Positions 31,298 to 42,308 of a stretch of 64,000 nt of DNA are shown here, one piece after another. Each line of letters opens with the position of its first letter. The stretch's first letter is position 1. A model generated the notes under the pieces. That model was not told the origin of the DNA. It did not search any database and worked only from the letters and a program-made list of their open reading frames with translations. The position numbers were made by a program, and so were the translations under genes. The DNA is from Terriglobia bacterium (GTDB taxonomy: Bacteria > Acidobacteriota > Terriglobia > Terriglobales > Acidobacteriaceae), in NCBI GenBank assembly GCA_020072645.1, contig JAIQGK010000002.1, positions 62,001 to 126,000 of the forward strand, written 5' to 3'.

Positions 31298-32224
31298 ATG
31301 AACGTGAGTTCCAGCAAAGCTAAACTTCGTGATCTCCGGACCGAGCAGCAGAACCTCGCCTCTTCCGCACTCGATACCATGTCCGCGCTGGAAATTACCC
31401 GGGTAATCAACCGTGAAGACCACAAAGTTGCTGCAGCCGTGGAGCGCGCCTTGCCGCAAATCGCGCAGGCCATTGACGCCATTGCCAATGCCATTCGCAG
31501 CGGCGGAAGGCTGATTTACGTGGGCGCCGGCACTAGCGGACGTCTTGCCGCGCTTGATGCCGCCGAGTGTCCTCCCACGTTCAATACCGACCCTAAGACC
31601 GTTCAATATGTGATTGCCGGTGGCAATAAAGCCCTGGGCCGTGCTGACGAATATAGCGAGGATTCCGCCGCCAGCGGGCGTAATGACATTGCCAAACGCA
31701 AGCCGGGCAAAAAAGATGTCGTAGTGGGAGTTGCTGCCAGCGGTCGAACACCCTACACCTTGGGTGCTCTGGAGCATGCACGCAAGAAAAGGGCCAAAAC
31801 CGTAGCCGTTGTCTGCAATCCTGGCTCCCCCATGGGTGCTCTGGCAGATATTGAGATCGTTATCGACGTAGGTCCGGAAGCCGTTTCAGGGTCAACGCGC
31901 ATGAAGGCCGGTTCTGCACAGAAAATGGCCCTGAACCTGCTAACTACAGGAACAATGGCCCGTCTTGGGTATATCTATGGCAACCTGATGGTGAATGTCC
32001 ATACCAGGAATCATAAGTTAATGGAACGTGGGCTGAATGTTTTAGAAAAAGCTGCTGGCGTTGACCGCCAAACTGCATCCAAAACTCTTGACGTGGCGGA
32101 CAATCAGGTGGCCATCGCCCTGATTATGTTGAAGACCGGTTTATCTCGCACCCAGGCAGTTAAAAGACTCAAAAGCGTTAAGGGTAATGTCCGAGAGGCG
32201 ATCGAGCAGGGTCATTTAAAATGA
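31298..32224 (+). CDS. murQ: N-acetylmuramic acid 6-phosphate etherase
   Basis: A 308-residue SIS-domain enzyme that splits the lactyl ether of MurNAc-6-phosphate to give GlcNAc-6-phosphate and D-lactate during cell-wall recycling. The signature GAGTSGRLAALDAAECPPTF is intact near residue 70, and the second family segment GPEAVSGSTRMKAGSAQKM is present. Start at the ATG 31298; a GTG two codons later is an alternative. It is 3 bp after the serine hydrolase gene, and its stop overlaps an ATG in the murA frame. No MurNAc kinase or PTS for making the 6-phosphate is in the window. Confidence 0.95.
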   Translation: MNVSSSKAKLRDLRTEQQNLASSALDTMSALEITRVINREDHKVAAAVERALPQIAQAIDAIANAIRSGGRLIYVGAGTSGRLAALDAAECPPTFNTDPKTVQYVIAGGNKALGRADEYSEDSAASGRNDIAKRKPGKKDVVVGVAASGRTPYTLGALEHARKKRAKTVAVVCNPGSPMGALADIEIVIDVGPEAVSGSTRMKAGSAQKMALNLLTTGTMARLGYIYGNLMVNVHTRNHKLMERGLNVLEKAAGVDRQTASKTLDVADNQVAIALIMLKTGLSRTQAVKRLKSVKGNVREAIEQGHLK

Positions 32225-32370
32225 AGCTAGTTCCCAAGTCACCGAATGGCAGTTCCAGCAAGGCAGAGACGCTGCTGTCCGTGGGCGTTCCCGGTTTCAG
32301 AAAGCCGGTTTCGCGCAGCCGGACCATCCGGATTGACTTCAGGGACGGAGAAATCGCGCCAGAGAGTCTT

Positions 32371-33675
32371 ATGGATAAGTTTGTAATTCGTGGTGGCAAT
32401 CCCCTGGTGGGAAGCGTACGCATCAGCGGCGCCAAAAATGCCGCATTGCCCGCGATGGCCGCCGCCATCCTTACCGACGAGCCCGTAATTCTGGAAAATA
32501 TCCCTGACGTTCGTGACATTCAGACGGAGCGCAATCTACTGGTCTCAATGGGCGCAGACGTGGAATTGGGCTACGGTCGCGCTTCCCATCGCACCACGAT
32601 TTCCTGCAACAACCTGGTCAATCCTGAAGCCGCGTATGAACTGGTAAAGACCATGCGTGCATCCACGCTGGTTCTGGGGCCGCTGCTCGCGCGTATGGGA
32701 CGCGCCCGCGTTTCCCAACCCGGAGGCTGCGCCATTGGCGCGCGGCCTATCGATCTCCATATCAAAGGTCTGGAACGGCTCGGCGCTTCCATCAAGCAGG
32801 AGCATGGCTATATTGAAGCCACTGCGGAACGTCTGCGCGGCGGCCACATCATTTTCGATAAGATTACCGTTACCGGCACTGAAGATCTCATGATGGCCGC
32901 AACACTGGCCGAAGGCGAGACCATCATGGAGAATTGCGCGCGCGAACCTGAAGTTGTTGATCTTGCTGCGCTACTCATCAAGATGGGCGCAAGGATTGAA
33001 GGCGCAGGGACCCATACCATCCGTATCCATGGAGTAGAAAAGCTTCACGGCGCGCGCCATAGGATCATTCCTGATCGTATTGAAGCCGGCACCTTTGTGA
33101 TTGCTGCCGTCCTCACCGGCGGCGACCTGCAGCTGACCAGTTGCGATCCGTCGCACCTGGGCTCATTGATTCAAAAACTGGAAGAATGCGGCGTGAGCAT
33201 CACGGCAGGGACGGATTCAATGCGCGTGACCAACGGCCACCAACTGCAAGCAGCCGATATCACCACAGAAGAATTCCCCGGCTTTCCCACGGACATGCAG
33301 GCGCAATACATGACGTTGGCCACACAGGCGCAGGGTACCTCGCTCATCACTGAGAATATCTTCGAGAACCGCTTCATGCACGCCGGCGAACTGGCCCGCA
33401 TGGGCGCTAACATCAAGGTAGAAGGCAGCCGCGCCATCGTTCGCGGCAAGACCCCTCTCAGTTCCGCCGCCGTTCAATGCTCTGACCTTCGCGCTTCAGC
33501 CTCTCTCGTCATCGCCGCGCTGGTTGCCGACGGTGAAACGATCATTGATCGCGTCTACCACGTAGACCGTGGCTATGAGCGGATTGAAGAGAAGCTGAAA
33601 GGCGTAGGCGCACAAATCCGTCGCATCGGTGAGATCCTGCCCAAACGCGCTGCGGTGCCCAGCGTGGTCGCGTAA
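32371..33675 (+). CDS. murA: UDP-N-acetylglucosamine 1-carboxyvinyltransferase
   Basis: First committed enzyme of peptidoglycan synthesis: it transfers enolpyruvate from PEP to UDP-GlcNAc. The 434-residue protein starts at the ATG 32371 ([20 protein letters not shown]), where all MurA proteins begin. The fosfomycin-target cysteine is present in [14 protein letters not shown], and the Lys in SGAKNAALP is intact. The frame is open back to an ATG at 32221 that overlaps the murQ stop by 4 bp. That would add a 50-residue low-similarity extension, so translational coupling or an internal start both remain possible. Confidence 0.93.
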
Positions 33676-33901
33676 AAATCGCCGGCAAGTCCCTTCTCAG
33701 TGCTCATTTCTTTGTGAAGTTACGTGGAGTTCTCGCCACGCTTTCTTCCCGCCAATGAAAACGCAGGATTTACGCAACCCATCAGTGTTCCCGCCTTCCC
33801 GTTTTGGAACAGCTCCGGATTTTTCTAAGCGATTTTTCATCATTTCCAACTGCTAGCGCCGTACCATTTAATTCTTCGTTTAATACGGAGCGAACAAGCG
33901 C

Positions 33902-34540
33902 ATGCCACTTCCCGGCAAGACTCTAAGTTCGGTGGAAAGAGGTTCGGAGGAAAGCCACAGCAATCATAGTGAGCCTCTGCCTCTGTTCCGTCCGGAAGCG
34001 ATTGCCGCTCTACAGCAAAAATTCTATGGCGAGATTATTCTCGTCCGTCCGTTTTCACTGATGTTGCTTTGCTGGTTTGCGCTGGGGATTACGGCAGCGG
34101 TCCTGGGATTTCTCTTCCTTGGCCAATACACGGAAAGGGCGCGCGTTCCGGGGATCATAAGCTCGAGCAGTCTCTCAAATCCGGGTCCGACGGGAGCTGA
34201 ATTCTACGTGCCCGCCAGCCTGCGTGACCGGCTGCACGTGGGCACTCATCTGACTTTGCGCTGTAATTCTTGCTCGACAAAGTTTGCTCGTCAGGTGGGA
34301 ACAGTACTGGAAGTCCCACAAACACCTGTGGAACCAGCGGAACTTTCCCAGAAGAATCCAGGTCTCTCTGTGCCTGGGGACAAAATTCCGGTTTACAAGA
34401 TTAAGGTGTCGCTTCCGCCACAAGCGGCACAGGACATGCAAGTGGACCCTTCAACACAAGCGGGAGTAAGAGTGGAAGCGGAAATCCCGCTTGGGCATAA
34501 ACCTCTCATCAAGTGGTTTTTTGAACGATCAGGAAGTTAA
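33902..34540 (+). CDS. Short HlyD-like membrane fusion (adaptor) protein of the peptide exporter
   Basis: A 212-residue inner-membrane protein with one transmembrane helix at about residues 52-76 and a small periplasmic part. The segment LFRPEAIAALQQKFYGEI just before the helix is typical of HlyD/CvaA-type adaptors of bacteriocin exporters. Usual members are about 400 residues with a long coiled-coil hairpin inserted in the lipoyl domain. Here residues 95-205 keep only the beta-domain part (EFYVPASLRDRLHVGTHLTL and a late VRVEAEIPLGHKPLIKWFF). It precedes the C39-type ABC transporter by 20 bp and probably works with it. Confidence 0.75.
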   Translation: MPLPGKTLSSVERGSEESHSNHSEPLPLFRPEAIAALQQKFYGEIILVRPFSLMLLCWFALGITAAVLGFLFLGQYTERARVPGIISSSSLSNPGPTGAEFYVPASLRDRLHVGTHLTLRCNSCSTKFARQVGTVLEVPQTPVEPAELSQKNPGLSVPGDKIPVYKIKVSLPPQAAQDMQVDPSTQAGVRVEAEIPLGHKPLIKWFFERSGS

Positions 34541-34560
34541 AGGGACGTAGGGCGCGGTAC

Positions 34561-36711
34561 TTGCAGAAAATGAAATTTTCCTGGGAACAAAAACTGCCGA
34601 TGGTCTTTCAGACTGAGGCGGCGGAGTGTGGCCTGGCTTGCCTTGCCATGATCGCCGGCTATCACGGTCTGCGCGTTGACCTGCCCGCGTTGCGGCACCG
34701 TTTCTCCGTTTCCCTTCGCGGCGCCACCCTGAACCATATCATCAAGTTCGCCGCCGCTCTTGATCTCACCGGACGCCCGCTTCGCGTGGAACTGGAAGAC
34801 CTGGCCTATCTGAAAGCACCCTGCATCCTGCATTGGAAGATGGAACACTTTGTGGTGCTGAAGAAGGTCACGCGGAAATACGTGTACCTGCATGACCCCG
34901 CTGTAGGGCCGCGCAGGGTCAGTTTTGCTGAAGCCAGCCGTCACTTCACCGGCGTTGCGCTGGAACTGACTCCCACACCCAGCTTTGTGCAGCGTGAAGA
35001 GCGCCGCCCGCTCCGCCTGCGCGACCTCATTGGCCGCGTCTCCGGTCTCAAGCGCGCTCTGGCGCAGATCTTTGTGCTGGCTTCCGCTCTGGAAATATTT
35101 TCCATCATCAGCCCATTGTTCCTGCAACTCACCGTGGATAAGGTGCTCGCGTCGTTTGATCGCGACCTGCTCTTTACCCTTGGCGTCGGCTTCATGCTGT
35201 TGATCGGCCTGCAATCTTTCCTGGGAGCGCTGCGCAGTTGGACCACTCTTTATTTCGGCACGTTGCTCAAATTGCAGTGGTACGCCAATCTTTTCTCCCA
35301 TCTGGTACGGCTGCCGGTATCTTTCTTTGAGAAGCGCTACTTCGGCGACATTCTCTCCCGCTTTGATGGCGCTGAAGCCATCCAGCGCACCCTCACTAAC
35401 AACTTTATTGAAACACTGCTCGACGGCTTGATCTCCATCTTTGTTTTGGCCGTAATGTTCTTCTATAGCCGCCAGTTGGCGCTGATCGTGATTGCCAGCG
35501 TACTGATTTACGTCGCATTGCGTAATTTCGCCTACCGTCCATTGCGGCAATCCACGGAAGAGCAGATCATGCGTCTCGCCAAACAACAAACTCATCTGAT
35601 TGAGACGCTTCGTGGCATTCGCACTATCAAAGTCCTGGGCCGTGAAGATGGCCGCAAGACGCGCTGGATGAACCTGCTTGCCGACACAACCAACGCCCAG
35701 GTGGCTGCGGAAAAGCTCACTCTGCTTTTCAGAGCTGCGAATGGGTTGATTTTTGGCCTGCAAACAGTAGCTGTGGTCTGGGCTGGCGCAATGCTGGTTC
35801 TGGGCGGCAAATTCAGCGTCGGCATGCTGTTTGCCTTCGTCGCTTATCAGGAACAATTCAAGGCGCGCATCACCACACTCGTTGACCGCTTGTATGAATT
35901 TCGCATGCTCTCGCTCCAGGTCCAGCGGCTTGCGGATGTGGTTCTGGAAAAACCTGAATCCACCTTCATCGATGACGCGGGAGCAGTTGAAGACTCTTCC
36001 ATCGATGTGAAACACCTCTTCTTCCGCTACTCGGACACCGAGCCGTGGTTGTTGCACGACGTAACCTTCCGGATCGAACCGGGCGAGTGCGTGGCAATCG
36101 TAGGAGCCTCTGGAGCGGGAAAATCGACGCTGCTGAAACTAATGGCCGGGCTTCTGAAACCGCAATCGGGAGATGTGGTTGTTAATGGACATTCTGTGTG
36201 CGAGAGCCGCGCGGCAGTCCTGGGCAATGTTGGTTTTGTGTTGCAGGATGATTCTCTTTTTGCCGGGACCATTGCGGAAAACATCGCTTTTGCCTCTGAC
36301 GTTGCCGACATGGCGCGGGTACAGGAATGTGCTCGTCTCGCCTGCCTCGACGATGAGATTAACGAGATGCACATGGGCTATAGCACGCTGATTGGTGAGA
36401 TGGGGTCGGCTCTTTCCGGAGGCCAGCAACAGCGCCTTTTGTTGGCGCGCGCTCTTTATCAACGGCCTTCCATTCTGATACTGGATGAGGCCACCAGCCA
36501 TCTCGACGTTCCCACTGAGCAGCGGATCGCGGCCATGCTGGTTGACCTGCGCATGACGCGCATTTTTGCCGCCCACCGTCCGGATACGATACGAATAGCC
36601 GACCGCGTCATCACTTTGTCGCGTTCCGGAACCATTTCTGAAGAACCGTCTTCATTGCGTGCAGCGCGTGAAGCGGGAGCACGAGTTTACGAAGGAGAAA
36701 GCTATGTCTAA
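34561..36711 (+). CDS. Peptidase-containing ABC transporter (C39 peptidase, TMD, NBD)
   Basis: A 716-residue exporter that both cleaves leader peptides at double-glycine sites and secretes the product. Residues 8-135 are a C39 domain with Gln17, catalytic Cys23 (AECGLAC), His96 (MEHFVVL) and Asp112 (HDP), all present. Residues about 150-430 contain six transmembrane helices. The nucleotide-binding domain follows with Walker A GASGAGKST, signature LSGGQQQR and Walker B ILILDEATSHLD. The frame starts TTG at 34561, with an ATG four codons in as the alternative. The first precursor gene starts inside its last codons (8-bp overlap), which ties export to the peptide array. Confidence 0.93.
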   Translation: MQKMKFSWEQKLPMVFQTEAAECGLACLAMIAGYHGLRVDLPALRHRFSVSLRGATLNHIIKFAAALDLTGRPLRVELEDLAYLKAPCILHWKMEHFVVLKKVTRKYVYLHDPAVGPRRVSFAEASRHFTGVALELTPTPSFVQREERRPLRLRDLIGRVSGLKRALAQIFVLASALEIFSIISPLFLQLTVDKVLASFDRDLLFTLGVGFMLLIGLQSFLGALRSWTTLYFGTLLKLQWYANLFSHLVRLPVSFFEKRYFGDILSRFDGAEAIQRTLTNNFIETLLDGLISIFVLAVMFFYSRQLALIVIASVLIYVALRNFAYRPLRQSTEEQIMRLAKQQTHLIETLRGIRTIKVLGREDGRKTRWMNLLADTTNAQVAAEKLTLLFRAANGLIFGLQTVAVVWAGAMLVLGGKFSVGMLFAFVAYQEQFKARITTLVDRLYEFRMLSLQVQRLADVVLEKPESTFIDDAGAVEDSSIDVKHLFFRYSDTEPWLLHDVTFRIEPGECVAIVGASGAGKSTLLKLMAGLLKPQSGDVVVNGHSVCESRAAVLGNVGFVLQDDSLFAGTIAENIAFASDVADMARVQECARLACLDDEINEMHMGYSTLIGEMGSALSGGQQQRLLLARALYQRPSILILDEATSHLDVPTEQRIAAMLVDLRMTRIFAAHRPDTIRIADRVITLSRSGTISEEPSSLRAAREAGARVYEGESYV

Positions 36712-36865
36712 GCAAAACGAGCCTAATCGGGTGCTGCTCCGCATGGGCGCCCGGCTGTTAACTGAGGAAGAAGTGGAAAGCGTAAGCGCTGCCGGTCCGC
36801 CGTGTCAGCTCACATTCACACACCTGCCCAAAGGCGGCTCAGACGAGGACACGTTTTGTCCGTAA
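36704..36865 (+). CDS. Graspetide-type precursor peptide 1 (divergent)
   Basis: 53 residues. The ATG overlaps the end of the exporter gene by 8 bp and has AAGGAG 7 bp upstream. The leader keeps NRVLLRMGARLLTEEEVESV but ends in SAAG and not Gly-Gly. The 23-residue tail has PPCQLTFTHL and an acidic end SDEDTFCP: two Thr, a D-E-D cluster and two Cys. It lacks the repeated 5' hairpin and is, with precursor 2, the most divergent member. Confidence 0.8.
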   Translation: MSKQNEPNRVLLRMGARLLTEEEVESVSAAGPPCQLTFTHLPKGGSDEDTFCP

Positions 36866-36917
36866 TCTGAGGGTCCCGGGCGAGCGAATGTAACAAAAAA
36901 TAAAAAGGAGAAAACAA

Positions 36918-37115
36918 ATGTCGAGACAAGAAGACAACAGAGTACTTGTCCGTTTCGGAGCACGGGAACTCACGATGGACGAAATCGACCAAGTGAGCGC
37001 CGCCATGCAGAACCACACCAATGTATGCACCGCAGCCATGCCCTTCGCCACCGTTACAGGTTCCGGCGACGGCGATGGCTGCAGCGATACCGACAAAGAC
37101 TCGAATTTCATTTAA
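36918..37115 (+). CDS. Graspetide-type precursor peptide 2 (long core)
   Basis: 65 residues, the longest of the set, with AAAAAGGAG before the ATG. The leader has DNRVLVRFGARELTMDEIDQV and ends SAA. The 36-residue core contains NVCTAAM, a Thr-Val-Thr stretch and an Asp-rich end GSGDGDGCSDTDKD. It has two Cys. It is followed by a GC-rich hairpin (CGGCCGC 37124-37130 with GCGGCCG 37151-37157). Confidence 0.8.
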   Translation: MSRQEDNRVLVRFGARELTMDEIDQVSAAMQNHTNVCTAAMPFATVTGSGDGDGCSDTDKDSNFI

Positions 37116-37224
37116 TGAAAACTCGGCCGCTTCACTGCTTTTGCGGATGAGCGGCCGCCAAAATCGCTCTCTAAAGCTTGGGCCCGCTCAACGGACCCAA
37201 AATGACGAAAAAAGGAGAACAAGC

Positions 37225-37380
37225 ATGAACGACGAAAGCAGAGTACTTATTCGGCGGGGCGCTCGTGAATTGGACCGGGAAGAGACCAAGCAAGTCAGCG
37301 GAGGTGTGAGGACCCTTACGGCATGCACATGGGACCCGGACTTCGGCGGTGACGGAGACTCTTCAATCGGTGAGTGCTAG
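37225..37380 (+). CDS. Graspetide-type precursor peptide 3
   Basis: 51 residues. The leader is 27 residues (ESRVLIRRGARELDREE, ending SGG). The core starts VRTLTACTWDPD and ends GDGDSSIGEC, giving three Thr, several acids and two Cys. It is preceded by the array hairpin (37178-37200) and AAAAGGAG, and followed by a terminator. Confidence 0.88.
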   Translation: MNDESRVLIRRGARELDREETKQVSGGVRTLTACTWDPDFGGDGDSSIGEC

Positions 37381-37390
37381 TTCATCAGGT

Positions 37391-37419
37391 GGGGCCGCCT
37401 TGGCGGCCCCGCCCCTTTT
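37391..37419 (+). terminator. Terminator between precursors 3 and 4
   Basis: An 8-bp stem GGGGCCGC/GCGGCCCC with a CTTG loop is followed by GCCCCTTTTC. It lies 10 bp after the stop of precursor 3. Confidence 0.65.
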
Positions 37420-37503
37420 CATCACACGAAGTCGTCATAGAAGGATCTTTTGCAAAGCTTGGGTCCGTTCATCAGACCCAAAATGACGAAAAAGGAGAAC
37501 AAC

Positions 37504-37656
37504 ATGAAAGAAGACAGAGTATTGATTCGACGGGGTGCTCGTGAGCTGACACCAACAGAAGCAGACCTGATCAACGGAGGCTTACGTACTCTTACGCTCT
37601 GCACGATCGGCGCCTCAGCACAAAAAGACGGAGATGTTTCCCTGGGTGAGTGCTAG
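37504..37656 (+). CDS. Graspetide-type precursor peptide 4
   Basis: 50 residues. The leader is 26 residues (EDRVLIRRGARELTPTEA, ending NGG). The core starts LRTLTLCTIG and ends KDGDVSLGEC. Two Cys. The array hairpin lies at 37459-37481, and AAAGGAG precedes the ATG by 8 bp. Confidence 0.88.
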   Translation: MKEDRVLIRRGARELTPTEADLINGGLRTLTLCTIGASAQKDGDVSLGEC

Positions 37657-37756
37657 TTTCAACGGGCCGCTCTTCCCCGGCGGCCCGGCAAGACTTTTGT
37701 GAAATGCTTGGGCTGTTCAATGATCCAAAACCAAGAAAAGAAAAGGAGCAAATGCA

Positions 37757-37906
37757 ATGAATGATCAAACCAGAGTGCTGATTCGTCAGGGATCGCGCGA
37801 GTTGAGTCAAGAGGAAGTCGAGCAGGTTGGCGGCGGTTTCAATACGCTTTCCATCACCTGGGGCCCCAATGGCAGGGATGGAGATGGTCTCCTGGGTGAG
37901 GCCTAG
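37757..37906 (+). CDS. Graspetide-type precursor peptide 5 (no cysteine)
   Basis: 49 residues. The leader has QTRVLIRQGSRELSQEE and ends GGG. The core FNTLSITWGP ... RDGDGLLGEA differs from all others: the Cys of T-x-C-T is deleted and the terminal Cys is Ala, so both cysteines are lost together. Thr/Ser and acids are kept. An imperfect 5' hairpin lies at 37708-37728. Confidence 0.86.
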   Translation: MNDQTRVLIRQGSRELSQEEVEQVGGGFNTLSITWGPNGRDGDGLLGEA

Positions 37907-38002
37907 CTTTTGCGCTTGTCGTCCTTGCGGCCTCGGCAAAGGTTTTTGTGAAGGCTTGGGCCGCTCGGATCGACCCCAAAATAAGAGAGGAAAGGAGGCA
38001 CT

Positions 38003-38161
38003 ATGAACGACCAAAATAGAGTGTTGATTCGCAAGGGCGCTCGCAACCTTACAGCGGAAGAAGTCGACCTTGTGAAGGGAGGCATAAATACCCTTACTGC
38101 CTGCACCGCTGATCCTGATTCACGCAGCGCGGACGGAGATGCTTCCATTGGTGAATGCTAG
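38003..38161 (+). CDS. Graspetide-type precursor peptide 6
   Basis: 52 residues. The leader has QNRVLIRKGARNLTAEE and ends KGG. The core starts INTLTACTADPD and ends ADGDASIGEC. Two Cys. An array hairpin lies at 37956-37979, and AAAGGAGG precedes the ATG. Confidence 0.88.
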   Translation: MNDQNRVLIRKGARNLTAEEVDLVKGGINTLTACTADPDSRSADGDASIGEC

Positions 38162-38259
38162 CTCTTGAATGCGGGCCGCCGCCCTCCAGCAGCCCGAGTG
38201 GTTTCTTTGAAAGGCTTTGGGCCGTTTGCTTAGGCCAAAGATGAAAGGAAGGAAAAAAC

Positions 38260-38433
38260 ATGGATGACCAGAACAGAGTATTGATTCGCAGGGGCGCTCG
38301 CTCATTGAGTGCGGAAGAAATCGAGCGCGTCGGCGCAGGAATAAGTACCACAACCCTGTGCACCATTCCCAGCACGACTTGCCCTAACAAGGACGGAGAC
38401 GCCTCCATCGGCGAATGCGGGCATGGTTGTTGA
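38260..38433 (+). CDS. Graspetide-type precursor peptide 7 (four cysteines)
   Basis: 57 residues. The leader has QNRVLIRRGARSLSAEE and ends GAG. The 30-residue core ISTTTLCTIP ... KDGDASIGECGHGC has an extra TTC segment and a C-terminal GHGC, so four Cys in total. The 5' hairpin at 38215-38240 has a distinct stem (CTTTGG/CCAAAG), consistent with compensatory change. Confidence 0.87.
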   Translation: MDDQNRVLIRRGARSLSAEEIERVGAGISTTTLCTIPSTTCPNKDGDASIGECGHGC

Positions 38434-38537
38434 ACAAGAGTGGCGCGTTCATAGCGCCACCGGCTTAAGCCCGGGACTTCATTCCGGCGGAATTAATGGT
38501 TTTAGAAAGTCTTGTACCGCAAGTAAGGAGTAAATGT

Positions 38538-38696
38538 ATGGACCAGGAAAATCGCGTACTCTGCCGCAATGGCGCTCGTGAGTTGACCGAGCAAGAAACC
38601 GGCCTCATTAATGGAGGCCTGCGTACCCTTACACCATGCACCATCGGGCCCGGCCCACACCACCGGGACGGAGATGCTTCCATAGGTGAATGCTAG
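38538..38696 (+). CDS. Graspetide-type precursor peptide 8
   Basis: 52 residues. The leader has ENRVLCRNGARELTEQE (with a leader Cys) and ends NGG. The core starts LRTLTPCTIGPGP and ends RDGDASIGEC. Two core Cys. The usual hairpin is missing upstream; the ribosome-binding site is TAAGGAG. A terminator follows. Confidence 0.87.
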   Translation: MDQENRVLCRNGARELTEQETGLINGGLRTLTPCTIGPGPHHRDGDASIGEC

Positions 38697-38706
38697 CTGG
38701 AAGCGG

Positions 38707-38730
38707 GGTCGCCCAATTGGCGACCTTTTT
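38707..38730 (+). terminator. Terminator between precursors 8 and 9
   Basis: A perfect 7-bp stem GGTCGCC/GGCGACC with a CAATT loop is followed by five T, 10 bp after the precursor 8 stop. Confidence 0.8.
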
Positions 38731-38813
38731 CATCCGCCAGCCAGCTGACCGGAAATTTCTCTTGAAAGAGCTTTGAGTCCGCTCAACGGACCCAATTGAT
38801 GAAAGGAGAAAAA

Positions 38814-38969
38814 ATGAATAACCAGAACAGAGTATTGATTCGCAGGGGTGCTCGCGAATTAACACCGTCAGAATCTGAAATCGTCAACGGAGGATTTGCC
38901 ACTTTCTCCCTCTGCACCAGCTCTCCTTCCCCGGATGGAGACCAACACGTTGGCGAGTTCGGTTGTTAA
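38814..38969 (+). CDS. Graspetide-type precursor peptide 9
   Basis: 51 residues. The leader has QNRVLIRRGARELTPSE and ends NGG. The core FATFSLCTSS ... PDGDQHVGEFGC carries Thr/Ser in place of the T-L-T-x-C-T spacing and ends FGC in place of GEC. Two Cys. The hairpin lies at 38773-38795. Confidence 0.87.
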   Translation: MNNQNRVLIRRGARELTPSESEIVNGGFATFSLCTSSPSPDGDQHVGEFGC

Positions 38970-38971
38970 AC

Positions 38972-39009
38972 GCGTTCGGCTGCGCATGAGCGCGGCCGAA
39001 CGCTCTTTT
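38972..39009 (+). terminator. Strong terminator between precursors 9 and 10
   Basis: A continuous 14-bp stem (38972-38985 with 38990-39003, one T-G wobble) with an ATGA loop is followed by TCTTTT. It starts 2 bp after the precursor 9 stop. Confidence 0.85.
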
Positions 39010-39059
39010 GCAAAGCCTGGGACAGCGATGGACCCAAAATTACGAAAGGAGATAAAAAC

Positions 39060-39233
39060 ATGAATGACCTGAACCGAGTATTGCTTCGCCGAGGCGCTCG
39101 CGCATTGAGTGAGCAGGAAGTCGAACACGTGGGTGGAGGAATACGTACCGCAACCCTTTGCACCGTCTCTACGGCGGCTAACGCCAGCGCGGACGGAGAT
39201 ACTTTCAACAGCGAGTGCGGCGCCGACGTATAG
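39060..39233 (+). CDS. Graspetide-type precursor peptide 10
   Basis: 57 residues. The leader has LNRVLLRRGARALSEQE and ends GGG. The core starts IRTATLCTVST and ends ADGDTFNSECGADV, with a short tail after the second Cys. Two Cys. A weaker hairpin lies at 39018-39036, and GAAAGGAG precedes the ATG. Confidence 0.88.
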   Translation: MNDLNRVLLRRGARALSEQEVEHVGGGIRTATLCTVSTAANASADGDTFNSECGADV

Positions 39234-39308
39234 CATTCCCGCTGAGAAAACTTCTTTTAAAGAGCTTGGGCCCCTCCAACGGACCCAAAAAGATGAAAGG
39301 AGAAAAAC

Positions 39309-39479
39309 ATGACTGACCAAAACAGAGTGTTAGCTCGCAAGGGCGCTCGTGATTTGAATGAGCAGGAAGTCGCGATGGTATCCGGTGGGCTGAGGACGTT
39401 GACCGCATGCACCCTGGCGGCAGCCGGCACTCTCGACGGAGATACCTTCCACAGCGAATGCGGCAGCCCCGATCTATAG
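39309..39479 (+). CDS. Graspetide-type precursor peptide 11
   Basis: 56 residues. The leader has QNRVLARKGARDLNEQE and ends SGG. The core starts LRTLTACTLAAAG and ends LDGDTFHSECGSPDL. Two Cys. The hairpin lies at 39266-39288. It shares the LNEQEV leader and TLTACTL core words with precursor 13, so the two are close relatives. Confidence 0.88.
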   Translation: MTDQNRVLARKGARDLNEQEVAMVSGGLRTLTACTLAAAGTLDGDTFHSECGSPDL

Positions 39480-39553
39480 CCGTTTCCGCGGTGAAGACTT
39501 CTCTTGAAAAGTCGGGTCCATTTAACGGACCCAATGACGAAAGGAGAAAAAGC

Positions 39554-39706
39554 ATGAATGACCAGAACAGAGTATTAGTGCGCAGGGGCGCCCGTGACCT
39601 GACCGAAAAAGAAGTCGAGCAGGTCTGCGGCGGTCTCCGGACGGCAACCAAATGCAGTGTAACCGCGGCCGGCGCAATTGACGGAGATCTCCACGAATGC
39701 AGTTGA
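39554..39706 (+). CDS. Graspetide-type precursor peptide 12
   Basis: 50 residues. The leader has QNRVLVRRGARDLTEKE and ends CGG. The core starts LRTATKCSVTAAG and ends IDGDLHECS. Two core Cys. The hairpin at 39512-39534 is a perfect GGGTCC/GGACCC stem. Confidence 0.88.
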   Translation: MNDQNRVLVRRGARDLTEKEVEQVCGGLRTATKCSVTAAGAIDGDLHECS

Positions 39707-39803
39707 CCCGGTTCCAGGCGGCATCCTTGCATGACGCCGCCGAACAAACTCTCTTGAAGAGCTTGGGCCCGCTCAACGGACCCAGATGTCGAAAGGAGAA
39801 AAC

Positions 39804-39950
39804 ATGAATAACCAGAACAGAGTATTGGTTCGCCAGGGCGCTCGTGACCTGAATGAGCAGGAAGTCGAGCAGGTAAGCGGCGGTTTCAGGACGTTGACCG
39901 CATGCACCCTGGTTGCGGTTGGCGTATTCGATGGCGAATGCTCCAATTAA
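39804..39950 (+). CDS. Graspetide-type precursor peptide 13 (shortest)
   Basis: 48 residues. The leader has QNRVLVRQGARDLNEQE and ends SGG. The core is only 21 residues, FRTLTACTLVAV then GVFDGECSN: D-G-D...G-E-C is contracted to D-G-E-C. Two Cys. The hairpin lies at 39764-39784. It is followed by a TTCG-loop terminator. Confidence 0.88.
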   Translation: MNNQNRVLVRQGARDLNEQEVEQVSGGFRTLTACTLVAVGVFDGECSN

Positions 39951-39955
39951 ACGGT

Positions 39956-39977
39956 GGCGTCTTCGGGCGCCCCTTTT
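39956..39977 (+). terminator. Terminator between precursors 13 and 14
   Basis: A 6-bp stem GGCGTC/GGCGCC with a TTCG tetraloop is followed by CCTTTT, 5 bp after the precursor 13 stop. Confidence 0.65.
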
Positions 39978-40023
39978 AACCAGCATCCAGTGCAATCGCT
40001 TAGCAATCATCAAGGAGGAACTT

Positions 40024-40197
40024 ATGGATCAGGACAATCGCGTACTCACCCGCAGGGGTGCTCGCGAACTTAGTGAGCAGGAAGTGGAAACCGTCACCGG
40101 GGCTTTCAAAGTCCGCCGCACGCTCACACCCTGCTTTGTGGACAGCAAACAACAATTCCTTAATGGAGATCAGACCATTGGTGAATGTGGTCCTTGA
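40024..40197 (+). CDS. Graspetide-type precursor peptide 14
   Basis: 57 residues. The leader has DNRVLTRRGARELSEQE and ends TGA. The core has an inserted FKVR before RTLTPCF, a long middle, and NGDQTIGECGP at the end. Two Cys. It has a stronger ribosome-binding site (AAGGAGG) and no array hairpin. A GC-rich hairpin without a T-run (40207-40229) separates it from the ATP-grasp gene. Confidence 0.85.
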   Translation: MDQDNRVLTRRGARELSEQEVETVTGAFKVRRTLTPCFVDSKQQFLNGDQTIGECGP

Positions 40198-40268
40198 TCG
40201 ATCCCAGGCGGCGTCCTTGTGGCGCCGCCCGGCTATAACACGCAAACTTCTGAAACGGAGGCAACGCA

Positions 40269-41363
40269 ATGAAGCTCATAGTTTTAGCGCCAGCGGACGA
40301 CAACCACACAGCCCCTATCAAGTGGGCGATGGAAAAGGCGGGCCAAAAGGTAGTGTGCTGGGCAGGTCTCTCATGGACTGATGAAGGTCAGTCTTCCCTC
40401 CTGATGAACGACGATGACACGCTCATCCTGGGAGGACACTCAGTTGACGCTGGTGACGTGATATGGATTCGTCGTCCGGAGGTTCCGGTCCACAACCCCA
40501 AGGTTTCTGAAGCAGACAAGAAATTTGCCGCGCTCGAATACCGCTGCTTCTACCATTCCATTGCTTATTTCTTTGAAACCATGCCGGTGTGGTGCATCAA
40601 CAAATATTCCGCGGCCCGCGTAATGATCCAGAAAGCCGTGCAGATGCAACTGGCCCGCAAGTGCGGACTCAAGACACCGGCGACTCTGATGTCCAATCAT
40701 CCTGCAGCTGTCAGAGAGTTTTTTGCCCGCGAAAATGCCCGCACCATCTGCAAAGGCTTTACCCCCCACGTATGGCAGAAGGAAGGCCATATGTCTGTCG
40801 CCATCACGGAAACCTTTGAGCTGACTGCCGACCAGTTGCCGAGCGATGAAGTTCTGACCTATGCGCCCGCCATCTACCAGGAACGCGTACCCAAGGAATA
40901 TGACATCCGCATGGTGCTGATGGGCAATCACATTTATTCCTACGCGCTCAGGAACAAGAAGCAGGCGCTGGACTGGCGGCAGGACGCAGGGTTAGGCCAC
41001 GTGACAGCCGAACTGGTTCCCACACCGCCTGACGTCGAAAGAGGCGTCCTGGAGTTCGCGCGCCGGTCCGGGGTGTGTTTTGGCTCGCTCGACTTCGGCG
41101 TTGACGCACAGGGCACGTGGTGGTTCCTGGAAATCAATGAAGAGGGCCAGTTCCTTTGGATCGATCAGTTCAATCGTGAAGCCAGGTTGCTGGAAAAGTT
41201 TTGCGCCTTCGTGACTGCGCCCGAGGGTTCAACCCTGCCTCTGGAAGCCCGTCAGGACCTCTTCCCTTCTCTGCAGGAATACGAAGAGTTGCTCAAGAAC
41301 GAGCAGGTTGCGCCTATAGGTCGGCCTCGTCAGGAAGACCCATTCCTCTCTATGGAGGCATAG
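40269..41363 (+). CDS. RimK/MvdD-type ATP-grasp peptide maturase (graspetide synthetase)
   Basis: A 364-residue ATP-grasp ligase directly after the precursor array, with GAAACGGAGG upstream. It resembles ribosomal-peptide ATP-grasp enzymes of the MvdC/MvdD type. These activate Asp/Glu side chains as acyl-phosphates and join them to Thr/Ser hydroxyls or Lys amines of a precursor. Features: VIWIRRPEVPVHNP in the N-terminal domain, NKYSAARVMIQKAVQMQLA at the start of the grasp, YQERVPKEYDIRMVLMGNH in the middle, and GSLDFGVDAQGTWWFLEIN-E-E-G-Q-F-L-W with the Mg-binding Glu/Asn pair. It is the only visible modifying enzyme, so it probably serves all 14 precursors. Confidence 0.87.
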   Translation: MKLIVLAPADDNHTAPIKWAMEKAGQKVVCWAGLSWTDEGQSSLLMNDDDTLILGGHSVDAGDVIWIRRPEVPVHNPKVSEADKKFAALEYRCFYHSIAYFFETMPVWCINKYSAARVMIQKAVQMQLARKCGLKTPATLMSNHPAAVREFFARENARTICKGFTPHVWQKEGHMSVAITETFELTADQLPSDEVLTYAPAIYQERVPKEYDIRMVLMGNHIYSYALRNKKQALDWRQDAGLGHVTAELVPTPPDVERGVLEFARRSGVCFGSLDFGVDAQGTWWFLEINEEGQFLWIDQFNREARLLEKFCAFVTAPEGSTLPLEARQDLFPSLQEYEELLKNEQVAPIGRPRQEDPFLSMEA

Positions 41364-41414
41364 AAGGCCAGGAATCTTTGCGATCTTCATTGCCTATGGA
41401 GTACAACAGATGCG

Positions 41415-42308
41415 ATGAAGATCGCGAAGAAAGCCCTCAAACTGGCGGATGCATTCAAGGTCAGACACGCGGGATCTTTTCGTCTCAAGGATTTCGACCC
41501 CGCCGATATCCGTGGCATCGATTCCAAAGAAAAAGCCGATGAGCTTTTGCAGCAAAGCGTGGCCGTGCTGCAGGACCTTCAGGAAAAACTCTACGCCCAG
41601 GACCAGTGGGCCGTCCTGCTGATCTTCCAGGCCATGGATGCCGCGGGCAAAGACAGCCTGATCAAGCACGTAATGTCTGGCGTAAACCCGCAGGCTTGTG
41701 AGGTATCGAGCTTTAAACAGCCCTCAGCCGAAGAACTGGACCATGATTTTCTCTGGCGGACGACGCGCCGGCTGCCGGAGCGCGGAAAAATTGGCATCTT
41801 CAACCGCTCATATTATGAAGAAGTCCTCGTCGTTCGGGTGCATCAGGAATATCTGCAAAAACAGCATCTTCCGCCGGAACTTGTAACAAAAAAGATATGG
41901 AAAGAGCGCTTCAAAGATATTCGCAACTTTGAGGAATACCTTACGCGCAACGGCGTCATCATCCGGAAATTCTTTCTCCATGTTTCCAAAGAGGAACAGA
42001 AGCGGCGATTTCTTGCCCGGCTGGACGAGCCGGAAAAGAACTGGAAATTTTCAGAAGGCGATGTCCATGAGCGCAAATACTGGGAAGACTACATGAACGC
42101 CTATGAAGACATGATCCGCCACACTTCTACTCCAGATGCGCCTTGGTACGTGGTGCCCGCCGATCACAAATGGTTTACCCATATCGCGGTAAGCTCGGCC
42201 ATCATCCAGACGCTGGAAGACATGGATCTCCAGTTGCCCAAGGTCGATAAAGTACGCCGCAAGCAGCTGGACGCAGCAAGGCAGGCGTTGCAGAAGTCGC
42301 GTGACTAA
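41415..42308 (+). CDS. Polyphosphate kinase 2 family protein
   Basis: A 297-residue PPK2-type polyphosphate:nucleotide phosphotransferase, cytoplasmic. The Walker A-like loop is FQAMDAAGKDSLIKH (about residue 75). It is followed by GVNPQACEVSSFKQPS, the lid region with WRTTRRLPERGKIGIFNRSYYEEVL, and a C-terminal WYVVPADHKWF. The family makes ATP or GTP from ADP or GDP (or AMP) with polyphosphate. It lies 51 bp behind the ATP-grasp gene on the same strand. It may be co-transcribed with the peptide pathway, whose maturase consumes ATP, but this link is speculative. Confidence 0.9.
   Translation: MKIAKKALKLADAFKVRHAGSFRLKDFDPADIRGIDSKEKADELLQQSVAVLQDLQEKLYAQDQWAVLLIFQAMDAAGKDSLIKHVMSGVNPQACEVSSFKQPSAEELDHDFLWRTTRRLPERGKIGIFNRSYYEEVLVVRVHQEYLQKQHLPPELVTKKIWKERFKDIRNFEEYLTRNGVIIRKFFLHVSKEEQKRRFLARLDEPEKNWKFSEGDVHERKYWEDYMNAYEDMIRHTSTPDAPWYVVPADHKWFTHIAVSSAIIQTLEDMDLQLPKVDKVRRKQLDAARQALQKSRD

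Follow-up and report, generated by a model that had tools for sequence, protein, structure and literature searches.

One of the questions raised by a long array of precursor genes beside a single synthetase is whether the enzyme reads the leader, the core or both, and for what fourteen related peptides are kept. The array discussed here lies at positions 33902 to 41363 of a 64,000-nucleotide stretch of DNA (the window, by which we mean the whole stretch that was analysed) from contig JAIQGK010000002.1 of a Terriglobia bacterium, whose genus appears to be Candidatus Angelobacter. We assign the locus, with a probability of about 85%, to the graspetides, the ribosomally synthesised and post-translationally modified peptides (RiPPs) that are matured by ATP-grasp enzymes. 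This class is already known; the layout of the locus is unusual, and its scale, its core type and the set of leader-sharing genes found across the genome look new. What the sequence shows is the gene layout, the enzyme family, the leader–core structure of the precursors, the constraint on their cores and the co-occurrence of enzyme and leader.

Synthetases that accept many unlike cores are wanted for the making of cyclic peptide libraries, and here evolution may have made one. A single synthetase stands beside 14 different cores, ten of which are conserved between species, in a soil genus that is rich in specialised metabolism.

The operon and its synthetase

The open reading frames (ORFs) of the window form an apparent plus-strand operon in which a short HlyD-like protein and a C39-peptidase ABC exporter are followed by 14 small genes (36704 to 40197, encoding 48 to 65 amino acids) and one ATP-grasp enzyme, in the gene order that the first-pass annotation had claimed. 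The enzyme is encoded at 40269..41363 and has 364 amino acids. It had been called MvdD-like, a label that proved loose: among the NCBIfam models TIGR04187 (160.8 bits, E 4.5e-47) scores higher than MvdD (131.2 bits), MvdC (102.7 bits) and grasp-with-SPASM (56.6 bits), all of them under their curated cut-offs. By sequence, the only solved structures matched at E <0.7 are graspetide synthetases, namely CdnC (7mgv, E 4.4e-27), MdnC, PruB, AMdnB, MdnB and PsnB, and the other two of the eight PDB matches are tail fibre proteins at E ~0.8. An AlphaFold model of the enzyme (predicted local distance difference test, pLDDT, 74; predicted template modelling score, pTM, 0.78) retrieves graspetide synthetases in the first 32 of the 50 rows shown by Foldseek.

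In a tree of 60 rows the enzyme falls inside a clade of 36 rows (support 100/99), together with Legionellales enzymes. One part of this clade (22 rows, 97/89) holds 20 Acidobacteriota rows together with two long-branched rows from Pseudoxanthomonas, and the other (14 rows, 92/65) holds Legionellales and other proteobacterial rows, one Massilia-type row, one from Myxococcales and one further row from Acidobacteriota. The tree has no true RimK root, both intended outgroup rows being from the same genome as the window; for the one that was scanned (L006) TIGR04187 is the top-scoring model, at 89.5 bits. It had been suggested that an ATP-grasp protein lying outside the peptide maturases would speak against the annotation, yet models, structures and this tree without a true RimK root all group it with peptide macrocyclases. 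By sequence, fold and tree, the enzyme belongs with the graspetide synthetases.

At the end of the enzyme (41150 to 41363) it can be seen that the clade members run 56–81 residues beyond the ExNxxG motif (28 rows compared), the corresponding stretch being 21–38 residues in three other enzymes (from Kitasatospora, Chryseobacterium and Pleurocapsa), and 11 of the 12 listed Angelobacter-type enzymes end near [FY]xSxE. In the window enzyme the motif lies in WWFLEINEEGQ, where the Glu and Asn of ExN would bind metal, as in the ATP-grasp fold generally. Among plasmid records 71 match the enzyme, all at less than 60% identity, and the best is a Legionella plasmid at 30%.

Leaders and cores of the precursors

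All 14 small proteins carry the leader R-V-L-x-R-x-G-x-R-x-L, followed by Glu and a V-x-G-G-like site, and nine columns are invariant in their alignment. The V-x-G-G cut site, as first described, applies in part, since GG is found in 10 of the 14 and AG, GA or AA in the rest. The same is true for the core motif T-L-T-x-C-T, which in the form [TS]x[TS]xC[TS] is present in 10 of 14 cores and is not universal: genes 1 and 2 have unlike cores, gene 5 has neither Cys of the pair and gene 14 lacks the third Thr. Compared with 11 other proteins of the window, the 14 cores are rich in Thr (13.9% versus 5.9%), Asp (10.2% versus 5.1%) and Cys (8.0% versus 0.8%).

In the loci fetched from the genus, donor residues (Thr/Ser) and acceptor residues (Asp/Glu) are both present in all 72 distinct cores. 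Their order is also biased: the mean share of donor–acceptor pairs in which the donor comes first is 0.845, where residue shuffles give a mean of 0.500 (standard deviation 0.027), and it is 0.846 in the 31 cores that are mutually unlike (standard deviation of shuffles 0.042). This test, like that of cysteine parity described below, covers peptides of 44–75 amino acids with a starting Met, and the leader boundary is placed one residue earlier in it than in the composition test.

Synthetases and precursors across the genome

In the 6.4-Mb assembly of the genome, contigs C19, C10 and C3 hold three close ATP-grasp paralogues of the window enzyme (51–62% identity), and two further ATP-grasp proteins are distantly related to it (E 5e-8 and 7e-6). 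The earlier statement of one ATP-grasp enzyme thus stands for the locus and fails for the genome; having been made from the window alone, it had no view of the wider set of leader-sharing genes. A profile built only from the 14 genes of the window (A1) finds 34 precursor genes in the genome at E ≤1e-4, besides a further gene at 0.03 and a single match that looks like chance. A wider profile (A4) recovers the same 34 at 1e-8 or better; it includes rows of this genome (G000) and of two others (G001 and G007), so that matches there are partly by construction. Fourteen of the 34 are in the window array, 7, 3 and 2 lie beside the other three enzymes and 8 are elsewhere. Of these eight, one (C19:62.7k, in L019) is separated by 7.4 kb from the enzyme on C19, and the other seven are in the stand-alone stretches L049–L055. 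No ATP-grasp match and no C39 match was found in these seven stretches, of which 14.7–16 kb each were fetched. That 8 of the 20 further leader-bearing genes are apart from the enzyme loci suggests that the synthetases work also in trans, as ProcM does with the prochlorosins.

A maturase of another kind beside the stand-alone precursors was looked for among the ORFs of at least 100 amino acids around 16 loci (L049–L064, comprising 15 stand-alone genes or pairs and the array of G005, L064), which were inspected visually and compared among themselves without a family library; this gave shared synteny and otherwise weak cross-matches. In three genomes (G005, G006 and G004; L059, L061 and L062) a stand-alone precursor with a long four-cysteine core has the same neighbours, and such a precursor is also found in the genome of the window (L053), near one neighbour in common with L061, which by reading is an elongation factor P-like gene.

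A second type of array is seen in L026 (9086–10649) and L027 (5872–7603), with seven or eight precursors whose Cys-free cores read T...TG..S.PD...D. The last precursor of L027 is truncated and has one Cys, and there is no C39 gene near either array.

Distribution in related bacteria

In nine genomes of the genus the precursor family was found in 7 and the enzyme in 6. Related Acidobacteriota do carry the array, as the first-pass annotation had proposed to check, with 12 genes in G006 (one of them split) and 5 in G004. Of 150 genomes of the same family, examined in two draws with identical settings that agree wherever genomes are listed, 6 match the enzyme. The leader was found in 5 of these 6 and in none of the 144 others; the sixth enzyme-positive genome (G170) has a partial match only (E 3e-30), and the profile holds rows of three of the five.

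In a sample of 396 genomes from the phylum, the enzyme is matched at E ≤1e-20 in 11. A scan with one genome per species returned 79 loci with relatives, seven of which duplicate contigs from the genus. Among the remaining 72 there are 36 with a leader match at E ≤0.05, several of them near this limit, and 24 of the 36 are named Legionella, Legionellaceae or Legionellales. The locus does not stand alone, then, as both the enzyme clade and the leader type reach other Acidobacteriota and Legionellales.

Proposed mechanism

In the mechanism that we propose, each small gene would give an N-terminal leader joined to a different core of about 20–35 residues, and the ATP-grasp enzyme would bind the common leader. 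The enzyme would phosphorylate the side chains of those Asp/Glu residues that lie in the C-terminal half of each core, and Thr/Ser hydroxyls of the N-terminal half would attack them to form esters. The product would probably have two or three macrolactones, nested or arranged like a hairpin. The two conserved cysteines would probably join in a disulfide after that, the C39 domain of the exporter would cut after the GG-like site and the short HlyD-like partner would help the peptide out of the cell. The synthetases may in addition act in trans on the precursors of the whole genome.

A wider proposal is that the genome contains a natural combinatorial graspetide library of 34 precursors with a common leader, of which 26 belong to the four enzyme loci and 8 do not. 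Selection would maintain each of the unlike cores, the four sister synthetases would cyclise them, in part by acting in trans, and the sole exporter-type C39 protein found in the genome, the one in the window, would serve the whole set. We put this forward tentatively and would give it somewhat less than even odds.

Points against and alternative explanations

Several observations weigh against the graspetide reading or against its extension to the whole genome. Every NCBIfam graspetide score of the enzyme is below its curated cut-off, and the leader has neither the PFFARFL nor the Phhx(1,2)h motif that is known from many graspetides (PMC8939145). In the 14 cores Glu is not enriched (3.7% versus 5.0% in the same 11 window proteins) and Ser is enriched weakly (8.2% versus 5.9%, p 0.07). 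The cores of precursors 1 and 2, and those of several genes outside the array, are so unlike the rest that one enzyme may not modify all of them. In G005, which is 81% complete and whose array runs to the end of a contig, there are precursors, including one that lies apart from its array, and no enzyme was found. G007 has enzyme and precursor, but its C39 matches are not exporter-like (E 9e-8 in a frame of 197 amino acids and 2e-5 in one of 1740). Finally, in the 26 genes beside the four enzymes the leaders carry some signal of their locus (similarity 0.614 within versus 0.538 between loci, beyond all 5000 permutations), and the cores follow the locus more than the leaders do (0.267 versus 0.114). 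Since the cores track the locus more closely, the leader as the sole element of specificity is not supported, and with a locus signal in both parts, four partly separate systems fit as well as one pool.

The alternative that survives best concerns the trans action alone: that these are four separate graspetide systems with an inherited common leader, the eight other genes being leftovers on which no synthetase acts. Each of the four enzymes has local precursors beside it, the nearest neighbour of a core is in the same locus for 85% of the 26 genes (62% for leaders), and incomplete G005 keeps its stand-alone precursor with no enzyme found. Against it, stand-alone genes are found with the same neighbours in related species (L052/L057, L055/L063 and L059/L061/L062), and within the 150 genomes of the family the leader is found only where the enzyme is. 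This alternative is a serious one, which falls a little short of an even chance.

A second alternative keeps the peptides and removes the macrolactones. The Cys count is 0, 2 or 4 in 74 of 77 distinct cores (those of the genus and of three near loci), the three exceptions belonging to one core type, and it is even in 30 of 31 mutually unlike cores. These even counts point to disulfides, and the conserved pair probably forms one. Together with the presence of a C39 exporter, they would also suit double-glycine microcin-like peptides that have disulfides only, while the ATP-grasp enzyme acts on some other substrate. Such a system would leave the donor-before-acceptor order and the enrichment of Thr and Asp unexplained; moreover, the C3 locus of the same genome joins an ATP-grasp enzyme to seven precursors with Cys-free cores, with no C39 match on the contig, and relatives with a similar leader are dehydrated (PMC9576775). 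We consider it improbable that disulfides are the only modification.

As to the exporter itself (34561..36711, 716 amino acids, with a TTG start or an ATG at 34570), it is of the peptidase-containing ABC transporter (PCAT) type. Pfam assigns it Peptidase_C39 (E 6e-35), ABC_membrane and ABC_tran, it matches HlyB and bacteriocin-transporter structures, and against NHLM_micro_ABC1 it scores 514 bits, under the cut-off of 853. No other C39 match in the genome combines the size of an exporter with an ATPase domain: the others are a 528-amino-acid frame on contig C1, with no ATPase domain by reading, and a 180-amino-acid protein on C4. The C1 protein sits in a separate RiPP-like locus (L166, G000:C1:325000-336000), where an ABC transporter, other ABC parts and a protein resembling a lantibiotic dehydratase C-terminal domain can be read. 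The name HlyD-like for the 212-amino-acid membrane protein ahead of the exporter (33902..34540) finds some backing in the fold and little in the sequence (TIGR01843 at E 0.029; nothing in Pfam at E ≤1). Its AlphaFold 2 model is of low confidence (pLDDT 63.9, pTM 0.45) and shows one long N-terminal helix (H50-73) and strands, with no long hairpin; the top Foldseek row is the HlyB/D complex 7sgr at E 2.1e-3, and no row is below 1e-3. The protein could be aligned with 4 counterparts (G004, G005, G006 and G008).

A third alternative is that the array is a decaying tandem expansion, with all but one or two of its genes being relics of no importance. The array has 14 genes here, 12 in G006 (counting the split gene) and 5 in G004, and the G006 orthologue of gene 8 (L017, 10870–11026) is split by a frameshift or an assembly error. 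Yet all 14 genes of the window are open, with a purine-rich site ahead of the start, and in ten reciprocal intact pairs with G006 the ratio of nonsynonymous to synonymous substitution rates (dN/dS) is 0.094 in leaders (95% bootstrap 0.048–0.157) and 0.091 in cores (0.045–0.154), compared with 0.033 in the enzyme; gene 8, with its frameshift in G006, and genes 2, 5 and 11, which have no reciprocal partner there, are left out of these values. Decay is thus very unlikely. The same dN/dS of 0.09 rules out a fast diversification of cores between species. Cores that differ greatly within one genome while the ten comparable ones are steady between species are indicative of a maintained set and not of a randomised one. 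We give equally little credit to a RimK- or PGM1-like activity, in which the enzyme would add amino acids or couple the peptide to a different molecule. The superfold is the same, and RimK and ArgX ligases follow the graspetide synthetases in the Foldseek search, but the RimK model scores 19.8 bits against 160.8 for TIGR04187 and RimK is absent from the eight PDB matches.

Gene positions and spacers

The operon is flanked by a MurA-like gene (32221–33675) and a polyphosphate kinase 2-like gene (41415–42308), names that come from reading of the ORFs and not from a family search. The start of precursor 1 (36704..36865, 53 amino acids), which like precursor 2 (36918..37115, 65) has a divergent core, overlaps the end of the exporter gene by 8 bases. 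Next come precursor 3 (37225..37380, 51 amino acids), precursor 4 (37504..37656, 50, with a further in-frame ATG at 37483), precursor 5 (37757..37906, 49), precursor 6 (38003..38161, 52), which is the top scorer against the family profile, and precursor 7 (38260..38433, 57), which has four Cys. They are followed by precursor 8 (38538..38696, 52 amino acids), precursor 9 (38814..38969, 51), precursor 10 (39060..39233, 57), precursor 11 (39309..39479, 56), precursor 12 (39554..39706, 50), precursor 13 (39804..39950, 48) and precursor 14 (40024..40197, 57), all on the plus strand. The profile of the 14 genes matched 14 pieces within 36700–40200, which is not informative as it was built from them; it gave zero matches in the other 60.5 kb of the window and zero in 20 shuffles of the array (2-base blocks).

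The spacers of the array are 52–123 nucleotides long. Rfam gave no match in 33600–41500, so they are not assigned to a known RNA. When the 14 spacers were folded, 6 were beyond z -2, 5 were between -2 and 0 and 3 were above 0. By eye, a GC-rich hairpin is seen shortly 3' of the stop codon in about 10 of the 14 (36866–40268), and several spacers have a repeated TTGGGCCCGCTCAACGGACCCAA-like hairpin ahead of the ribosome-binding site. Such hairpins could tune the stability of the mRNA or the dosage for each gene separately. A promoter search found 1 site where 3.0 were expected, and 12 terminator-like sites were found where 9.9 were expected.

Comparison with known systems

The features by which a graspetide locus is recognised are found here at the level of sequence: an ATP-grasp protein of the macrocyclase family (below the cut-offs), adjoining leader–core precursors, and cores with donors and acceptors. 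In the literature 174 graspetide families were described, including Bacteroidetes systems with several unlike precursors per enzyme and four precursors in chryseoviridin (PMC8939145), the main text of which does not contain the term 'acidobacteri'. A larger survey, with a network of 43 groups, predicted 21,584 graspetides in 17,967 clusters (PMC13097080), which by our own division is about 1.2 per cluster. A few group 13 clusters come from Acidobacteria (PMC13001092). Gene clusters of Candidatus Angelobacter were reported, with one shared family of ribosomal peptides mentioned without detail (PMC9723581), and the word 'graspetide' is absent from the main text of that report. The passages and search listings that we covered in the literature, the two founding graspetide classifications and all supplements being outside this scope, contained no 14-gene array of single-core precursors, no core of this type and no dispersed set of leader-sharing graspetide genes. 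The earlier impression that the locus looks undescribed can be kept, within that scope, for the array and its core; it does not extend to graspetide loci with several precursors, which are in print (PMC8939145; Gra-7, PMC9576775).

The window enzyme has the same fold and family as the microviridin, plesiocin and chryseoviridin synthetases (MdnC, PsnB and CdnC). In those systems, unlike here, the leader carries PFFARFL (microviridin-like), one plesiocin precursor has repeated cores, or the precursor genes are four (chryseoviridin; PMC8939145, PMC12291112). The branch 5 loci of Bacteroidetes resemble the array in having several unlike precursors per ATP-grasp enzyme, and GG sites; they differ in that a SPASM radical SAM enzyme is typical there and the precursors often cannot be aligned, whereas here one leader is common to all (PMC8939145). 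No SPASM-like gene was recognised in the window ORFs that were read, the flanking genes not having been run against a family library.

There is also a likeness to group 8, where Gra-7 of L. pneumophila has two precursors (Gra-7A and Gra-7B) for one ATP-grasp enzyme of a related clade; both precursors are dehydrated three times, and for A alone the sites were placed within the core region (PMC9576775). NHLM-type exporters are frequent in this group (PMC13097080). Legionella loci share a leader of the RVLxYxLA....xxL..VSGG kind, and the link to group 8 is made at the level of the genus, L. pneumophila itself being outside the loci fetched. The differences are an enzyme identity of ~30%, one or two leader matches per Legionella locus (E 0.05) in place of 14, and the lack of Cys in 25 of the 32 listed Legionellales-type precursors.

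The prochlorosins have a conserved leader, unlike cores and genes that lie partly apart from their synthetase. The 34 genes described here have one leader, and 8 of them are apart from any enzyme locus, which is what a trans-acting system of that kind looks like. Lanthipeptide systems with 10–80 precursors per synthetase are known, among them ProcM with its 30 ProcA genes in Prochlorococcus MIT9313 (PMC11667668), and in both cases many precursors go with one synthetase, which is tolerant in the case of ProcM and may be so here. Among graspetide synthetases broad tolerance was reported for ThfB, in a 2025 study with an engineered substrate (PMC12291112). The chemistry of the prochlorosins is that of lanthionines, their single LanM synthetase is unrelated to ATP-grasp proteins, and the present genome has four synthetases, so the array, whose enzyme is an ATP-grasp protein, does not belong to the prochlorosins proper. 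Our best reading is that it would be their graspetide counterpart, in which one leader feeds many conserved cores to few synthetases.

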